This document shows positions 54,005 to 61,621 of a stretch of 64,000 bases of DNA, piece after piece; the first letter of the stretch is position 1, and each line of letters starts with the position of its first letter. The notes beneath the pieces were generated by a model. The model saw nothing but the letters and a program-made list of their open reading frames with translations. It ran no database searches and was not told where the DNA came from. The stretch comes from Opitutaceae bacterium (GTDB taxonomy: Bacteria; Verrucomicrobiota; Verrucomicrobiia; Opitutales; Opitutaceae), in the NCBI GenBank assembly GCA_015075305.1, contig JABTUS010000005.1, positions 124,001-188,000 of the forward strand, read 5' to 3'. Position numbers and translations under genes: made by a program.

Positions 54005-54838
54005 ATGTCGTCCATCGTTCACTTTTCCGGTTACAAGTTCACACCGCTCTCGAATCTGCCCGATCTGAAGGAGGAGCTTCTGGCATTCTGCCGTGAGAAG
54101 AGTCTGTGCGGAACGATTTTGCTTAGCCCGGAAGGCATCAATTTCTATGTCGCGGGCGCGGCGGAATCGGGCGAAGCCCTTCTTTTGAAACTGCGCACCT
54201 GCGCCGGCCTTGGGGATCTTGCCGCAAAGCGCAGCAGCAGCGCCCGGCGGCCGTACGACCGCATGATGGTCAAGATCAAGCGGGAGATCATTGCGTTTGG
54301 CGACGAACAGATCGATCCGGCTCGTCACACATCCCCGAAGCTCTCCGCAGGGGAACTGAAGCAGTGGCTGGACGAAGGACGGGATGTGACGCTGCTCGAC
54401 ACGCGAAACGACTACGAAGTCCATCTCGGGACATTCAGGAATGCGGTGCCTGCCGGCATCGATCATTTCCGTGATTTTCCAGAGGCGGTCCGCCGTCTGC
54501 CCGCTGAATGGAAGACGAAGCCAATCGTGATGTTCTGCACCGGTGGCATCCGCTGTGAAAAGGCCGGCCCCTGCATGGAGCGGGAGGGATTCCGACATGT
54601 ATTCCAGCTCGACGGAGGAATCCTGCGCTATTTCGAAGAATGCGGTGCCGCACATTTTGAAGGCGAATGCTTCGTGTTTGATCAGCGCGTCGGCCTCGAT
54701 CCTGCGTTGAAGGAAACACAGTCGATCCTGTGCGCACGGTGCCAGATGCCTCTTGCCTCAGAGGAGCAGGCTCATCCCCACTTTGTGGCCGGAAAGAGTT
54801 GTCCGCACTGTCATGGGCGCGTGACTTCGCCGGCTTGA
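54005..54838 (+). CDS. trhO: tRNA uridine-34 hydroxylase (TrhO/YceA)
   Basis: A 277-residue protein of the rhodanese-related TrhO family, which makes 5-hydroxyuridine at the tRNA wobble position using oxygen. The N-terminal part has [11 protein letters not shown], and the rhodanese domain has D-T-R-N-D-Y-E and the active loop [11 protein letters not shown] cysteine-rich end (C-A-R-C and C-P-H-C) follows. The start could be 53987 or 54005. It lies 64 bases after the PagL-like gene with no clear functional link. Confidence 0.92.
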
Positions 54839-54863
54839 CCCGGCATTGCCAATGCGGCGAATC

Positions 54864-55862
54864 CTACCGGCTGACAGCCTGCCGTGATTGATCTGCTTCC
54901 GAACCGTGTTGCGGGGGAATCTGCACGGGCGCGCGCCGTCCGGCCCAACGCACTATCAGGCCCTCCCGCGGACTGACAATCCACACAACCCCGAACAACA
55001 GCGCCCCGGCCACAACCATGGCGGCGGCGATGGAACAATCGAGCCACACTCCCAGGGTGACGCCGAGCCACGCGCTGATCGCCGCATGCAGCAGCGAAAG
55101 CAGATGCACACGCGACAGCCGTGTGGAGATCAGTGATGCAGTGGCGCCCGGGAGTATGAGCATGGCGATGACCAGAATTGCGCCGACGGACTCGAAGGCG
55201 CTCACGACCACAACCGACAAAGCGGCCATCAGGCCATAGTGCATGACCACCGGATTCGTGCCGAGGGACCGCGCCAGGCCGGGATCGAATGCGCTCACGA
55301 GAAGCTGCTTGTAGAAGGCAATGATCAGAAGCGAGATGACAAGCAGGACGGAAGCCATCCGGACAAACGGAACGGGGCCCAGAACGATGCCTCCAAGACT
55401 GACCATCGGCTCGAGGGGAACGAATGCAATTTCACCGTAGAGCACGCAGTCTGCGTCCAGGTCCACCTGTGCCGCGAAGATGCTTGTCATGACCACACCG
55501 ATCGCGAACAAGGTGGAGAATGTGATTCCAATGGCGGCGTCCTGCTTGACGCGCGTGAGCTTGTGAATCGTTTCAATCATCACCGAGGTGAATCCACCGG
55601 CGGCGAGCGCGCCGACAAACATCGGCAGCGTGCCACGGCTTCCGGAAATCAGAAAGGCGGCGACCAGTCCCGGCAGCACGCTGTGGCTCACGGCGTCGCC
55701 CATCAACGCCATGCGCCGCAGCATGAGGTAGTTTCCAATCAGGCCGCATGCTCCTGTCACGGCAAACCCCATCGCGGCAATCCACCCGAACAGGGAAAGA
55801 TTCTCCGTCCAAGGGGCGATCAGAACCGCATGAGGGTCGAAGTTTGGAATGATTTCAGTCAT
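54864..55862 (-). CDS. Metal ABC transporter permease (YtgD/TroD-like)
   Basis: A 332-residue ABC-3 family permease with about eight helices. Family motifs include L-R-R-M-A-L-M-G-D-A-V-S-H-S-V-L-P-G and L-I-L-P-G-A-T-A-S. It overlaps the YtgCR-like gene by 4 bases (55859-55862) and is the last gene of the operon. The two permeases probably form a heterodimer. Metal identity (Zn, Mn or Fe) is not settled by sequence. Confidence 0.92.
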   Translation of the reverse strand: MTEIIPNFDPHAVLIAPWTENLSLFGWIAAMGFAVTGACGLIGNYLMLRRMALMGDAVSHSVLPGLVAAFLISGSRGTLPMFVGALAAGGFTSVMIETIHKLTRVKQDAAIGITFSTLFAIGVVMTSIFAAQVDLDADCVLYGEIAFVPLEPMVSLGGIVLGPVPFVRMASVLLVISLLIIAFYKQLLVSAFDPGLARSLGTNPVVMHYGLMAALSVVVVSAFESVGAILVIAMLILPGATASLISTRLSRVHLLSLLHAAISAWLGVTLGVWLDCSIAAAMVVAGALLFGVVWIVSPREGLIVRWAGRRAPVQIPPQHGSEADQSRQAVSR

Positions 55863-57289
55863 TTTCCAGAGCCATTGCCCAGGTCGAGCCGTGGAGTTTC
55901 TCCGTGAATCGATCGCGTCGTGGGAATGGCGCGCCCATGGGGATCGAAGGTGGCATGACCCAGCCGCCGCTCCAGGTCGCGGACCACGGACTCACCCAGC
56001 ACGTGCTCGATTTTTTCAGCATCATCATGCACGTGATCAGCCGCGATGTTTGCGGATTGCGTCAGGTAGAGCTCCCATAGCCTGTGATTTCGAACAATCT
56101 CCCCCGCCCGCTTCCTTCCCGGCGGCGTAAAGTAGAGGGCGTCGCCGGAAATGCTGGCAAGACCATGGCGCACCAGATCCCGGCCAAGCCGCTGCACATC
56201 CTCAATGGTCTCCTTCCGGCGGATGGCCAGTTCGTGAAAGGTTACGCTTTCCGACTGGAAGTGCCCCGCCTCCATGACATGAAACATCGCCTTCAGCGTG
56301 TTTTCCCGCCGAGTGCGCGCCGCACCGCTGCGACGCAGGAGCCATCGCGCCACGACCCCATGGCGTGGACCGAAGAGAAAAGCGGTCGAGAAGATCGCAC
56401 TGGCACCCATCACCATGAGCGGGCCGGTCGGAAGGCTCGGACCGACAAAGGATAGAAAGGCACCGAGCACGCCGGCAGCCACGCCAAAGATGGCGGCGAG
56501 GATGAGCAGCCTGTGAAGTCGGTCGGTCAGCAGGTAGGCGGCCGACGCGGGCGTGATCAACATCGCCGAGACCAGCACGACTCCCACCGCCTGGAGTGCT
56601 ATGACCACGGATGCGGTGAGGAGGAGCATGAGGCCGTGGTGTATCCAGCGTGTTGGGATTCCGATCGAGCTTGAGAATCCGGGGTCGAAGCTGGATGCGA
56701 GGAGCTCCTTGTAGAACGACACGACGAGCACGATTGCCAGGGCGGTGATGATCGTCATCAGCACGATGTCACCCGAACTGAGCGCGGCGGCCTGACCGAA
56801 AAGGAACTTGTCCAGGCCGCTCTTGTTTCCCGTCGGCAGTCGCTGAATCATCGTCATGAGGCATATTCCCATGGCGAAGAATGTGGCCAGAACCAGGCCG
56901 AGTGCTGCATCCTCCTTGAGCCGCGTCGTGCGGGAGATCGCCGAAACCAGGGACGTTCCAAGCAGCCCGGCGATTGTCGCCCCGACAAGGATCGCGATGG
57001 GATCCTTTGTCATGTTCCAGAGGAAGCCGATGGCCACGCCCGGAAGCACGGCATGTGAAAGCGCGTCTCCGACCAGCGCCATTCTGCGCACAACGATGAA
57101 ACTTCCCAGGAGTCCGCATCCGAGCCCCAGAAGCACCGAGCCGAGAAGAGCATATCTCACGGACGCATCCTGCAGCGTCAGAAAACGGGCGATCTGACTG
57201 CTCCAGTCAGAATCGACGAAATCGCGCACGCCGCCGGCGTGTGCGAAGACGGCGGATCCAATGAAAAACAGCACACCCCTGCGCATCAA
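55859..57289 (-). CDS. Metal ABC permease fused to DtxR/MntR-type repressor (YtgCR-like)
   Basis: A 476-residue fusion. Residues about 40-315 are an ABC-3 permease (R-R-M-A-L-V-G-D-A-L-S-H-A-V-L-P-G). Residues 328-456 match a DtxR-family winged helix and dimerisation domain, with F-T-P-P-G-R, H402 and E406 in H-R-L-W-E-L-Y-L, H421, E425, E428 and H429 in H-D-D-A-E-K-I-E-H-V, and D-P-H-G-R-A-I-P. Glu at 425 corresponds to the MntR rather than the DtxR (Cys) metal ligand. The N-terminal ligand position (D in MntR) is Asn. In Chlamydia, YtgCR is cleaved to free the repressor YtgR; similar cleavage here is a hypothesis. Confidence 0.9.
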   Translation of the reverse strand: MMRRGVLFFIGSAVFAHAGGVRDFVDSDWSSQIARFLTLQDASVRYALLGSVLLGLGCGLLGSFIVVRRMALVGDALSHAVLPGVAIGFLWNMTKDPIAILVGATIAGLLGTSLVSAISRTTRLKEDAALGLVLATFFAMGICLMTMIQRLPTGNKSGLDKFLFGQAAALSSGDIVLMTIITALAIVLVVSFYKELLASSFDPGFSSSIGIPTRWIHHGLMLLLTASVVIALQAVGVVLVSAMLITPASAAYLLTDRLHRLLILAAIFGVAAGVLGAFLSFVGPSLPTGPLMVMGASAIFSTAFLFGPRHGVVARWLLRRSGAARTRRENTLKAMFHVMEAGHFQSESVTFHELAIRRKETIEDVQRLGRDLVRHGLASISGDALYFTPPGRKRAGEIVRNHRLWELYLTQSANIAADHVHDDAEKIEHVLGESVVRDLERRLGHATFDPHGRAIPTTRSIHGETPRLDLGNGSGK

Positions 57290-57294
57290 ACCTC

Positions 57295-58068
57295 CTATCG
57301 CGAACTCCCGTGCGCACCCAGCGCCTGGGCGACTTCGCTGAGTATCGTGAGCCTTCCGCCGTACGTCTTCTGGAGCAGCTCCGCTGTGAATACATCCTGG
57401 GTTTTTCCGAATGCGACGACATTCATGTTCAGTAGAAGCAGATCGTCGAAGTATTGTCGGGCTGTCGGAAGATCGTGATGGACCACGAGGAGCGTCTTTC
57501 CCTTGTCGCGCAGTTCCCTCAGCACGGTGATGATCGCCGCTTCGGTCGCGGCATCCACCCCGGCGAACGGTTCATCCATGAAATACAGATCAGCCTCCTG
57601 CGCCAGTGCGCGGGCGAGAAAAACGCGCTGCTGCTGTCCACCCGAAAGGTTTGCGATCTGCCGGTTGGCATAGGGCAGGAGGTGGACCTTGTCGAGGCAT
57701 GCACGGGCGATCGTCCGATCGACCTTTCCTGGTCGGTGGAGAAGACCGAGGCGTCCGTAACGCCCCATCAGGACGACATCCAGGACATTGACCGGGAAGT
57801 CCCAGTCGACGGATTCGCGCTGCGGCACATAGCCAACGCGACGCGCCATCCTGTGGAATGAATCGCCGAATACCTTCACCCAGCCGCTTTGCAAAGGCAG
57901 CAGGCCCATGCATGCCTTGATGAGAGTCGACTTGCCGGCGCCATTCGGACCCACGATCCCGATGAGCCGCCCTGGATCTATCGCGAGATCGACACCCCAG
58001 AGCACCGGTTTCTTGTGGTAGGCGACCGTCAGGTCGTGGATTTCCAAGGGTGGAGACTGCTGGATCAT
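57295..58068 (-). CDS. Metal ABC transporter ATPase (YtgB/TroB-like)
   Basis: A 257-residue ATPase. Walker A is G-P-N-G-A-G-K-S-T-L, the signature is L-S-G-G-Q-Q-Q-R-V, and Walker B is Y-F-M-D-E-P-F-A-G-V-D. W-G-V-D-L-A-I and L-L-V-V-H-H-D-L fit the zinc/manganese group. It starts 6 bases after the outer-membrane gene and precedes the permease fusion by 5 bases. Confidence 0.93.
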   Translation of the reverse strand: MIQQSPPLEIHDLTVAYHKKPVLWGVDLAIDPGRLIGIVGPNGAGKSTLIKACMGLLPLQSGWVKVFGDSFHRMARRVGYVPQRESVDWDFPVNVLDVVLMGRYGRLGLLHRPGKVDRTIARACLDKVHLLPYANRQIANLSGGQQQRVFLARALAQEADLYFMDEPFAGVDAATEAAIITVLRELRDKGKTLLVVHHDLPTARQYFDDLLLLNMNVVAFGKTQDVFTAELLQKTYGGRLTILSEVAQALGAHGSSR

Positions 58069-58074
58069 GGTCGG

Positions 58075-58899
58075 TCAGAAGCGTTGGGAGATGCCGAAAA
58101 ATACACCCAAGTCCGGTGCCGCGCGAGTGATTCCCACGCTCAGTCCCGCATCGAGCTGACAGTTGTCGTTCACGGCCAAGGTTAGACCCGTATTGAAGCC
58201 AAGGGACGGTTTTCCGACGCCTGTCTCCAGCGCGAGTTCCACGAATCCTCCCATGGCACCGGTGAGATCGCGACCGACCGTCATCGTGCCGACAGCTATC
58301 AAGTCGTATCCATCATCGCCCGAGTTTCTGACAACGTCCAATTCAACCATGGTGCCAAAGCTCGTGTCTTCACTCAACTTTGCGGCATAGGGAAATAGGA
58401 TGCCACCCTCGGCAAAGCGGTCGCCAAACTTGCCGGAGTGCGTGGGTAGCTTCACGAACGGCATTACGCCGAATGCGGATTCGCCAGCGTCGTTTCCCCA
58501 GAAGTTATGCTTCACCCTCAAGGTCGTGTCGCCGAAGCCGCGCTGCCGCATTCGAAAGCCAAGAGGACGATTCTCGGTTTTCACGTCGAGAAAACTGTCG
58601 AGCACAATCTGGATCTCCCAGGAGGAACTCAGGCCGATGCGAACGTTGACTGGCGCAATATTGAAAACCTTCGTGTGAGTGGCGTCGCGTTCGGTGTTAT
58701 GACGGTCGTCCATGAAGCTTGCGAAACTCAATTCGACCTGCAGCCGTCCGGGCTCAACGGTGAAGGGACTTTCGGTCGCGTCAGGGCGATCGGTGCTGAG
58801 TTCGCGAGCTGCGTCGGCGCCATTGCAGGCGATCAATGCGAAAACAAACGCGAAGGGATGAAGGAACTGGCGTGGCGACCGCGTGGATGGGCTGTTCAC
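58075..58899 (-). CDS. Outer-membrane protein in the metal operon (MetA-pathway family)
   Basis: A 274-residue exported protein with a signal peptide ending at I-A-C-N-G-A-D-A-A. The mature start L-S-T-D-R-P-D-A-T-E-S-P-F-T-V-E-P-G-R is the hallmark of the outer-membrane family filed as 'putative MetA-pathway of phenol degradation' or 'transporter'. Alternating strands and a terminal G-I-S-Q-R-F indicate a beta-barrel. It overlaps the binding-protein gene by 4 bases and sits directly before the ATPase gene, so it is a core operon member, perhaps the outer-membrane route for the metal or its chelate. Confidence 0.75.
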   Translation of the reverse strand: MNSPSTRSPRQFLHPFAFVFALIACNGADAARELSTDRPDATESPFTVEPGRLQVELSFASFMDDRHNTERDATHTKVFNIAPVNVRIGLSSSWEIQIVLDSFLDVKTENRPLGFRMRQRGFGDTTLRVKHNFWGNDAGESAFGVMPFVKLPTHSGKFGDRFAEGGILFPYAAKLSEDTSFGTMVELDVVRNSGDDGYDLIAVGTMTVGRDLTGAMGGFVELALETGVGKPSLGFNTGLTLAVNDNCQLDAGLSVGITRAAPDLGVFFGISQRF

Positions 58900-59807
58900 T
58901 TGAGGGAATTCACTATGGTCGTCAGGTTGTGCTTGATCATGCCCTCGTAGGTGCCGAGATCGTAGCCGTTTTCGATTGCGCCCGGCGTTCCCATGGCGTC
59001 GGAGAACAGTTCCCCGCCAATCCTGACTCCGGCATCAAGCGAGACTCGTTCAATGGTCGCATGCGGCACGCTCGACTCGACAAAGATGGCCTTCACGCGG
59101 TGCGATTTGATGAAGTCGACGAGCCTGGCCATGTCGGACAGCGCCGCCTCGCTCACAGTCGAGATGCCTTGGAGTCCGATGACCTGAAATCCGTAGGCGC
59201 GTCCGAAGTAGTTGTAGGCGTCGTGGCTGGTGACAAGAACGCGCTTCTCGACGGGCAATTCCTGCGCCTTGGCCTGCGCCCATTGATGAAGTGCGGAAAG
59301 CGACTCGCGCAGCCTGAATCCGCGGCTCGCATAATCGCCCTTGTGCGCGGGATCATTGGCGGCCAGCGTTTCAACCACGGGATGGATGCATTTCATCCAC
59401 AGCGAAACGTCGAACCAGACGTGCGGATCCGGATGGCCCTCGAACTTCGGCGGATGCAGCAGACGATCGCGGGGTATGTCGCGTGTCACGGCCACAACCG
59501 GCTTGTGCTTTTCAAGACGCCCAAAGAGCTCGGCCATTTTTCCCTCAAGCATCAAACCGCTGTAGAAAATGACATCCGCCTTCTGAAGTTCCAAGACATC
59601 GGAAGCGCGAGCCTTGTAAAGGTGCGGATCGACACCCGGTCCCATGAGGCCGGTGACGGTGACTGCATCTCCGCCGATCTGCCTGACGAGGTCGGTGATC
59701 ATCGTTGAGGTGGTCACAACCCGCAGCGGTCCGGCGATGGCAAGGCCTCCAATGAGGATTGAAAGCGAAATGCCTCTGACAAGATGGAGCAATGGCAGCG
59801 CGGTCAT
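58896..59807 (-). CDS. Metal-binding periplasmic protein (TroA/YtgA-like)
   Basis: A 303-residue cluster A-I binding protein with a signal peptide (G-I-S-L-S-I-L-I-G-G-L-A-I-A). Likely metal ligands are the histidines of V-D-P-H-L-Y, D-P-H-V-W-F-D and T-S-H-D-A-Y, and the aspartate of L-F-S-D-A-M-G. The stretch G-L-Q-G-I-S-T and E-S-S-V-P-H closely recall Treponema TroA, suggesting Zn/Mn rather than the glutamate-containing Mn-only set. First gene of the five-gene operon. Confidence 0.92.
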   Translation of the reverse strand: MTALPLLHLVRGISLSILIGGLAIAGPLRVVTTSTMITDLVRQIGGDAVTVTGLMGPGVDPHLYKARASDVLELQKADVIFYSGLMLEGKMAELFGRLEKHKPVVAVTRDIPRDRLLHPPKFEGHPDPHVWFDVSLWMKCIHPVVETLAANDPAHKGDYASRGFRLRESLSALHQWAQAKAQELPVEKRVLVTSHDAYNYFGRAYGFQVIGLQGISTVSEAALSDMARLVDFIKSHRVKAIFVESSVPHATIERVSLDAGVRIGGELFSDAMGTPGAIENGYDLGTYEGMIKHNLTTIVNSLK

Positions 59808-59851
59808 GGATCGATTGAACTCGGAGCACTAATTACAGCAAGCAAAAAAAG

Positions 59852-59865
59852 TTAGCCTAGTCTAA
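59852..59865. promoter_or_regulatory. Candidate DtxR-type operator between the metal operon and the iron permease
   Basis: TTAGCCTAGTCTAA is a 14-base palindrome with one mismatched pair and a CTAG centre. Read over 59847-59865 it fits the 19-base DtxR box, especially in its central and right parts. It lies 45 bases upstream of the binding-protein start and 62 upstream of the divergent permease start, and it contains TCTAAT, a possible -10 for the permease gene. The natural candidate to bind it is the DtxR domain encoded in the adjacent operon. Confidence 0.6.
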
Positions 59866-59926
59866 TTAATGCCTTGGACATCCTGCTCTTGCTCCCGGTG
59901 ACGGCTCACCCCCACTCTCTGGCAGC

Positions 59927-61621
59927 ATGTCCAAGTCCCTTGCCCGTATCGTATTTCTCGTTACGGCGCTCTTCTTTACGGCCTTCTTCCTCTGGCCAAT
60001 TCTTCAGATCCTCAAGGGCGGTTTTGTGGATGCGGACGGAAGACTCACCTTCGCCTACTTCTTCGCTCTCCTGGCGGATCCGCTCTACCGTGAGGGGCTG
60101 GCCAATTCGTTTCTGCTGGCCTGCCTGACGACGGGGCTGGCCTTGATCATCGCTGTGCCGCTGGCATTCATCAGCGACCGATACCTGTTCCCCGGCAAGT
60201 CGCTGCTCAGCTCGCTGGTCTTGATCCCGATGATACTGCCTCCCTTTGTCGGCGCCATCGGGATCAAGCAGATCTTCGGTCAGTACGGTGCGTTCAACTC
60301 ACTGCTCATCGGGCTTGGCGTGCGTCCTGAGGGATGGACCTACGACTGGTTCGCCCTGCATCAGTTCGGCGGCATTGCGATCGTCAACGCGCTCACCCTT
60401 TACCCAATTCTGTACCTGAATTGTGTGGCCGCACTGGCAAACATTGATCCAGCGATGGAGGAGGCCGCACAGAATCTGGGCTGCACCGGGTTTCGGCGCT
60501 TCCGACTGATCACCCTGCCGCTGATCAAACCGGGACTCTTTGCAGGAGGGACGATAGTTTTCATCTGGGCGTTCACCGAGCTGGGCACGCCGCTTGTGTT
60601 CGACTACTCTCGTCTGACGAGCGTGCAGATTTTTTATGGCCTGAAGGACATTGGCGGGAATCCATTTCCCTATGCGCTGGTCGCGGCCATGCTGGTGTCG
60701 ACGACACTGCTCTATGCCTTGGGCAAGGGACTTTTCGGACGCCAGAACTATGCGATGATGGCAAAGGCGACCACGAGCGGAGGACCGCGCAGGGCGGGAC
60801 GCCTGGTGTCGTGGCTTTGCGCCGGGGCCTTCGCTGGCATCACCTTCCTGGCGATACTTCCCCACCTGGGCGTGGTGCTTGTCGCATTCTCAGATGATTG
60901 GTACGCAACAATTCTGCCGCGCAGCTTTACGCTGAAAAATTTCGATATCGCGCTCGGGCACGATCTCACGGTACCCGCGATTGCGAACAGCCTCAAGTTC
61001 GCAAGCATTTCCACGATCCTTGATGTGATCCTGGGCATCGCGATCGCCTACGTTGTGGTTCGCTCAAAGGTCGCAGGCCGGCAGGTGCTTGATTTCCTGG
61101 CGATGCTTCCGCTTGCCGTACCCGGCTTGGTTCTGGCCTTTGGTTACCTGGCAATGTCGCAGGATGGGCGGTTCTTTTCGTTCCTCAATCCCACCCGGGA
61201 TCCCACGATCCTGCTGATCATCGCCTATTCGGTCCGGCGCCTTCCCTATGTCGTGCGTTCGGCGGCGGCCGGTTTTCAGCAGACGAGTGAAACTCTCGAG
61301 GAGGCGGCGCAGAACATGGGTGCATCACCACTTCGGGCATTGTACAAGGTGACCCTGCCCCTGATCACGGCAAATCTGATTGCCGGAGGGCTGCTCGCTT
61401 TCGCGTTCGCAATGCTCGAGGTCAGCGACTCGCTCATCCTCGCGCAAAAGCAGGCCTACTACCCGATCACAAAGGCGATTCTCGAGCTGCTGCAGTTGCT
61501 CGGTGACGGAAAATTCATAGCCAGCGCGCTGGGAGTCTGGGCGATGGTTTTCCTGGGCATCACCATTGCCGGCATGACCATCCTTCTTGGCCGAAAACTT
61601 GGGGCCATCTTCCGCGTTTGA
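59927..61621 (+). CDS. Ferric-iron-type ABC permease with two transport domains (FbpB-like)
   Basis: A 564-residue permease with two copies of the inner-membrane binding-protein-dependent domain and about 12 helices. Both EAA loops are visible (E-E-A-A-Q-N-L-G-C and E-E-A-A-Q-N-M-G-A), the arrangement of SfuB/FbpB. The matching ferric-binding protein and ATPase are not in the window; they could be elsewhere. It shares its upstream region, and perhaps the operator, with the metal operon. The next gene overlaps or abuts its stop. Confidence 0.9.
   Translation: MSKSLARIVFLVTALFFTAFFLWPILQILKGGFVDADGRLTFAYFFALLADPLYREGLANSFLLACLTTGLALIIAVPLAFISDRYLFPGKSLLSSLVLIPMILPPFVGAIGIKQIFGQYGAFNSLLIGLGVRPEGWTYDWFALHQFGGIAIVNALTLYPILYLNCVAALANIDPAMEEAAQNLGCTGFRRFRLITLPLIKPGLFAGGTIVFIWAFTELGTPLVFDYSRLTSVQIFYGLKDIGGNPFPYALVAAMLVSTTLLYALGKGLFGRQNYAMMAKATTSGGPRRAGRLVSWLCAGAFAGITFLAILPHLGVVLVAFSDDWYATILPRSFTLKNFDIALGHDLTVPAIANSLKFASISTILDVILGIAIAYVVVRSKVAGRQVLDFLAMLPLAVPGLVLAFGYLAMSQDGRFFSFLNPTRDPTILLIIAYSVRRLPYVVRSAAAGFQQTSETLEEAAQNMGASPLRALYKVTLPLITANLIAGGLLAFAFAMLEVSDSLILAQKQAYYPITKAILELLQLLGDGKFIASALGVWAMVFLGITIAGMTILLGRKLGAIFRV

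Follow-up and report, generated by a model that had tools for sequence, protein, structure and literature searches.

An ABC-3 metal permease fused to a DtxR-type domain without the DNA-binding family signature in an Opitutaceae importer operon

The fusion gene and its operon

The window, which is the whole 64,000-nucleotide stretch of Opitutaceae DNA analysed here, contains an operon with the gene order binding protein, PF13557 barrel-like protein, ATPase, permease–tail fusion and second permease (Table 1), the tail being the C-terminal DtxR/MntR-type domain of the fusion. The fusion occupies a single open frame on the minus strand (55859–57289) of 476 codons from a TTG or 475 codons from the ATG at 57286, and the ATG is the likelier start because AGGAGG is read in the sequence at 57296–57291. 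PF00950 and PF02742 both match within this one frame and the modelled tail adopts the expected fold, which bears out an earlier note on this DNA that had described a metal permease joined in frame to a DtxR/MntR-type domain.

Table 1 Features of the importer operon (positions in the window)
Feature	Position	Strand	Remarks
Permease-DtxR fusion	55859..57286	-	alternative start TTG 57289
ABC-3 permease domain, residues ~42-305	56372..57163	-	PF00950 1.7e-68; PsaB fold
Winged-helix part of tail, residues 322-386	56129..56323	-	folded; without PF01325 signature
Metal-binding and dimerisation part of tail, residues ~387-456	55919..56128	-	PF02742 Fe_dep_repr_C 1.1e-22
Metal-binding protein (ZnuA family), ytgA/psaA-like	58896..59807	-	PF01297 1e-74
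Outer-membrane barrel-like protein, within operon	58075..58899	-	PF13557 9.2e-14
ABC ATPase	57295..58068	-	PF00005 2.8e-26
Second ABC-3 permease, no tail	54864..55862	-	PF00950 2.7e-46, no other family
Operator-like palindrome TTAGACTAGGCTAA	59852..59865	.	45-58 nt upstream of binding-protein ATG

The same note had equated the gene order with the chlamydial ytgA-B-CR-D arrangement. The four gene types do occur in that order, with the binding protein, ATPase and second permease that a YtgCR-type architecture requires, but the note had missed the extra PF13557 gene between the binding protein and the ATPase. Homologues of this gene are also present in other fused operons, and its product is possibly an outer-membrane metal channel. 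The binding protein (58896–59807) has an apparent H-H-E-D ligand set, as read from its sequence and as in Mn/Fe binders, which we take to resemble the set of PsaA. The top NCBIfam match of the ATPase is the manganese transporter MntA, below the family cut-off; overall, the ATPase and the binding protein score best against subunits of Mn and Zn importers, in no case reaching the family cut-off. A third ABC-3 permease is present elsewhere in the genome.

The fused state is conserved, with permease and tail in one frame in 79 of 80 titled loci (some frames being cut by contig ends), a count that is partly the result of selection because the query included the tail; at the remaining locus (L128) the contig begins inside the tail. 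The search that the note had proposed, for DtxR domains C-terminal to ABC-3 permeases, returned fusions from several phyla. Chance or an assembly artefact as the source of the fusion was rejected on the same query-selected count.

An AlphaFold2 model of the fusion, built with 61 aligned fusions, has a mean pLDDT of 85.9 and a pTM of 0.75. Its permease part superposes on PsaB of the pneumococcal Mn importer (Z 36.8, 270 residues, 36% identity), and its tail forms a full winged helix and a dimerisation domain in the DtxR/MntR metalloregulator fold. The tail superposes on the Mn repressor DR2539 (8pw0; Z 19.6, 135 residues aligned) and on DtxR (2qq9, Z 19.4; 1bi2, Z 19.3; 134–136 residues aligned), and DR2539 is also its best PDB match by sequence (6.6e-15). 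The folded winged helix on which the earlier proposal depended is therefore present in the model. The last membrane helix (residues 287–305) is followed by a five-residue turn and then by a single confident helix (residues 311–340) that runs into the tail, and the model contains no low-confidence stretch between permease and tail. Such a confident helix may all the same be compatible with cleavage.

A conserved metal site and an altered DNA-reading part

The residues at the metal positions of the tail are N329, H401, E405, H420, E424, E427 and H428 (numbered from the ATG). We take N329 to correspond to DtxR M10 and MntR D8, and E424 to DtxR Cys102 and MntR Glu99, in a DtxR and MntR numbering whose spacing was checked on the MntR of the same genome. 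The expected residue stands at six of the seven positions checked, the Asp/Met position of helix 1 being Asn, and the metal site is intact; E424 is the MntR-like Glu in place of the DtxR Cys that had been read from the sequence before. Among 93 fused C tails, the expected residue is found 93 times at H77, 93 at E81, 83 at H95, 82 at E99, 92 at E102 and 92 at H103, and all six ligands are present in 82 tails. Asp replaces H95 in nine and E99 in ten of the 93, and the C tails of loci that carry two tails differ among themselves in these same replacements. The ligands are retained in the 11 tails on second permeases, with a single exception, an Ala at E99. Trp at position 80 is invariant in the 93 C tails.

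The DNA-reading part presents a different picture. PF02742, the metal-domain family, matches 61/61 fused proteins and 44/44 free relatives, whereas PF01325, the DtxR DNA-binding family, matches 44/44 free relatives and just one of the 61 fused proteins (E 0.025); the window's fusion gives no PF01325 match at E values up to 1. The fused set comprises 60 of 67 listed fused proteins and that of the window, with near copies left out, and contains neither second-permease tails nor the nine double-tail loci of the window's phylum; the free set was hand-picked from the free proteins found, leaving out the FeoA-linked ones. In the recognition helix, which in the window's tail lies in the region RKETIEDVQRLGRDL, fused tails show acidic residues where free relatives show Gly/Ala and Thr/Ser. 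Ser/Thr at both recognition positions 38 and 40 occurs in none of the 93 C tails, and Asp/Glu at position 37 or 38 in 72 of them. The corresponding Ser/Thr count in the long free set ('freeL') is circular, because that set was filtered on the letters PGT; counts from the unfiltered alignment exist. Arg is present at position 32 in 87/93 C tails, and this conserved pattern on a folded winged helix means that another kind of DNA binding is possible.

Mean column entropies for the helix-turn-helix and the metal half are 2.37 and 0.83 in the fused C tails, 1.81 and 1.21 in long free regulators and 1.19 and 1.43 in short free regulators. Compared with free relatives, the 93 C tails thus have a more conserved metal half and a less conserved helix-turn-helix, and in long free regulators, too, the helix-turn-helix is the more variable of the two, though by a smaller margin. 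In the underlying alignment, free rows L049, L050, L017_196 and L042_9780 were dropped and the removal of identical rows reduced 166 rows to 160; the 45 'freeL' rows include the cut-off fused pieces L021_1 and L128_1 as well as FeoA-linked proteins, and the 'freeS' set (11 rows) includes one long regulator, L014, which a chance EHH brought in. The mean dN over 505 pairs follows the same pattern, with 0.551 for the winged helix, 0.241 for the metal half and 0.291 for the permease, values that are comparative only because most pairs are close to synonymous saturation.

We considered whether the tail is a decayed relic and find this unlikely, as its metal half is more conserved than that of free regulators and Arg 32 and Trp 80 are kept. 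A related reading would make the tail a metal buffer, or a part that serves the assembly or stability of the importer, with no signalling role. The metal half is indeed the most conserved part of the tail and tails occur on one or both permeases; however, the fold that is kept is that of an allosteric sensor, and the winged helix is still constrained (dN/dS about 0.4, with synonymous change near saturation). We regard this reading as rather improbable.

Free regulators and the upstream palindrome

Besides the fusion, the genome of the window contains exactly one PF02742 match, an unlinked MntR on contig C1. It is canonical, with 149 residues, a PF01325 match of 1.4e-17 and the expected D, E, H, E, E, H set. 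Upstream of the operon, the palindrome at 59852–59865 agrees with the type I consensus at 10/10 fixed positions, and a site of the same type precedes 26 further operons, each from a genome with a free short MntR. The pattern has one exact match in the 4.87-Mb genome and a reversed control pattern has three, so the single match means little by itself and its position means more. A promoter scan of 54700–60000 gave no sigma-70-like site near the palindrome (one elsewhere, 1.3 expected). A divergent two-domain BPD_transp_1 permease (59927–61621) begins ~120 bp from the binding protein, and the palindrome could therefore serve both genes.

The upstream region was readable in 69 operons, and in 19 of these a gene for a free DtxR/MntR protein lies no more than 400 bp from the first gene. 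Genomes were examined for 46 of the remaining 50, and 42 of them contain a free family member somewhere; the term unlinked is inexact for two of the 46, since the regulator of L080 overlaps the region of the first gene and that of L092 is encoded downstream of its operon. Operator I (TTAGNCNNGNCTAA, 9 or 10 of 10 positions) is present in 27 operons from genomes with short MntR and in none with long DtxR, and operator II (TTTGANTANTCAAA, 11 or 12 of 12 positions) in 18 operons from genomes with long DtxR and in none with short MntR, both consensuses having been drawn by eye from these upstream regions before the unlinked regulators were looked up. The remaining 21/69 operons fit neither operator. 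Regulator classes were typed by hand; L064 is unclassed, and L044, whose class is doubtful and which fits neither operator, enters no count. The short class was borne out in 33/33 operons to which an unlinked short MntR had been assigned. Base-shuffled sequence, in which base composition alone is kept, reached the threshold in 16/3450 cases for operator I and 3/3450 for operator II. On a permease tree of 45 operons the regulator class changes twice, once on supported branches, so that the agreement of operator and regulator is suggestive and no proof; because the class changed just two times, a Fisher value is unusable and counts only are given.

Sites of other kinds were also seen. TGTTTTA-type motifs or palindromes lie upstream of the fused operons of L096, L101, L111, L086 and L100, and TGTAGC-type ones upstream of those of L072 and L080, all in genomes with short MntR variants.

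These observations bear on the proposal of the earlier note that the tail is the membrane-tethered repressor of its own operon, a YtgR-type protein that, tethered or cut loose, would shut the operon when metal is plentiful. Its domain order is that of chlamydial YtgCR, for which promoter binding and a 28–30 kDa product are reported in the sources cited below; the winged helix is folded in the model, a palindrome lies upstream of the operon, and operator I occurs in three operons (L058, L077 and L084) of genomes in which the fusion was the only family member found, in assemblies that may be incomplete. In contrast, the PF01325 signature is present in 1/61 fused proteins, no C tail of 93 has Ser/Thr at both recognition positions, 42 of 46 genomes searched contain a free MntR/DtxR, the window's genome has a separate MntR, and the type of operator goes with the free regulator, albeit over one or two switches of class; the model also lacks a low-confidence linker. 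On this balance the proposal did not hold up well, and we think it unlikely that the tail is the repressor.

A second possibility is that the tail pairs with the free MntR/DtxR, or holds it at the membrane in one state of the pump, so that transport would tune transcription. The tail keeps the dimerisation and metal domain and is usually found in a genome that also has a free family member. However, the tails make up a lineage of their own, distinct from the two free groups, and occur alongside either of two free types, and a conserved mixed dimer is therefore not obvious; this arrangement seems to us rather improbable.

Distribution of the tail and a possible role at the importer

In the samples examined, 18 of 145 genomes from the phylum of the window have a C-type match over the last membrane helix and the tail (positions 1–2 to 177–178 of 182), one more match being cut. 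In the phylum to which the Planctomycetota-titled locus belongs, matches from positions 1–2 to 164–178 occur in 22 of 119 genomes, and there are further weaker ones. The 80 titled loci include one each titled Sumerlaeota, Planctomycetota, Poribacteria and Klebsiella, the others carrying verrucomicrobial titles. The contig titled Klebsiella pneumoniae (MAG; L091) has a typical verrucomicrobial fused operon, and the bin is evidently mis-titled. No relative turned up in a scan of viral contigs. The suggestion that the fusion is an old trait extending beyond Chlamydiae agrees with its presence in loci titled Verrucomicrobiota, Planctomycetota, Sumerlaeota and Poribacteria. Permease–DtxR fusions outside Chlamydiae are already known and are not new: according to a 2017 review (PMC5599777), Thompson et al. 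2012 found orthologous permease–repressor fusions across 11 bacterial phyla.

Tails are present on both permeases in 11 loci: nine of the window's phylum and those titled Planctomycetota and Poribacteria. A quick tree was built from 33 of the 93 C tails, with SH-aLRT as its sole support measure, and contains some long branches. In it the C tails form a supported group (96), a second group (80) holds 10/11 second-permease tails, and a branch (98) separates the tails, together with five FeoA-linked DtxR_C proteins, from the free regulators. These five proteins (L051:4654-5778, L052:4634-5680, L053:4787-5773, L054:4802-5794 and L055:4981-5973) consist of a DtxR metal domain and two FeoA stretches, and FeoB adjoins the fused protein in 5/5 of the loci fetched, all from the same phylum. 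None has a PF01325 match (E up to 0.01 for two and up to 0.001 for three). As all but one of the 61 fused proteins lack it too, signature-less DtxR-derived domains appear on two unrelated metal importers. At L052, a separate 221-residue free DtxR lies beside the FeoA-fused protein.

Because the DNA-reading parts are seemingly lost and the metal site is kept, sensing at the pump is likelier than a released gene repressor. We propose, giving it an even chance of being right, that the operon encodes a Mn2+/Fe2+ ABC importer whose tail is an importer-mounted metal sensor derived from DtxR, with transcription set by the free MntR/DtxR and uptake gated by the tail. In this scheme the tail would stay attached to the importer as a sensor of cytosolic metal, and the free regulator, which in the window's genome would be the unlinked MntR on C1, would act at the upstream palindrome. 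When cytosolic metal is plentiful, the tail would bind it and dimerise or change shape, and this change would be passed through helix 311–340 to slow uptake, as a feedback on transport. The tails on both permeases in some lineages and the FeoA-fused sister group beside feoB argue for the sensor. Against it stand the reported DNA binding and cleavage of YtgR, the one studied tail of the same design as far as the cited accounts describe it, the operons that have neither operator, the three operator-I operons in fusion-only genomes and, in single-tail systems, the want of an evident partner for tail pairing.

More broadly, and with somewhat less than even confidence, we suggest that a DtxR sensor free of DNA reading has been mounted on unrelated importers (ABC importers, on one or both permeases, and FeoA beside FeoB), where it throttles uptake, and that the cleaved chlamydial repressor is a special use of an older transport sensor. 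If so, one protein family would supply two layers of metal control in several phyla, with one member acting on DNA as a free DtxR/MntR and another fixed to the transporter, and Mn/Fe ABC importers would own a built-in feedback. The YtgCR story would then be reread, with the fusion old and the use as a released repressor possibly lineage-specific.

The closest described system is YtgCR (CT069) of Chlamydia trachomatis, which, compared by description, is likewise an ABC-3-type permease with a C-terminal DtxR-like domain in an operon with a binding protein, an ATPase and a second permease. In Chlamydia, YtgR is reported to bind its own promoter with Fe2+ and to be cleaved off (PMC5599777); YtgCR is reported to yield a 30-kDa cleavage product in E. 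coli and to have a regulatory WWW motif (PMC7755916), and the chlamydial product is given as 28–30 kDa (PMC7755916, PMC5599777). This is larger than the DtxR-like domain, and the ~17 kDa fragment expected in the earlier note calls for caution. Unlike YtgCR as described, the window's system has a free MntR in the genome, a tail without the PF01325 signature and a PF13557 gene that is absent from the described ytgABCD order; the YtgCR domain is reported to be released as a 28–30 kDa iron-dependent repressor, whereas we read the window's tail as staying on the importer. The permease domain resembles that of the PsaBC Mn importer of Streptococcus pneumoniae, but the alignment stops at model residue 314 and the PsaB chain has nothing that matches the tail. 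The tail in turn resembles DR2539, DtxR and IdeR, superposing over ~135 residues (Z ~19) with its metal ligands mostly kept, and differs from them in being attached to a membrane protein and in lacking both PF01325 and the Ser/Thr recognition pattern of free relatives. Its sister group, the DtxR_C–FeoA proteins beside feoB, shares with it PF02742 without PF01325 and a tie to a metal importer, although in L051–L055 the domain is fused to FeoA domains and not to an ABC permease.
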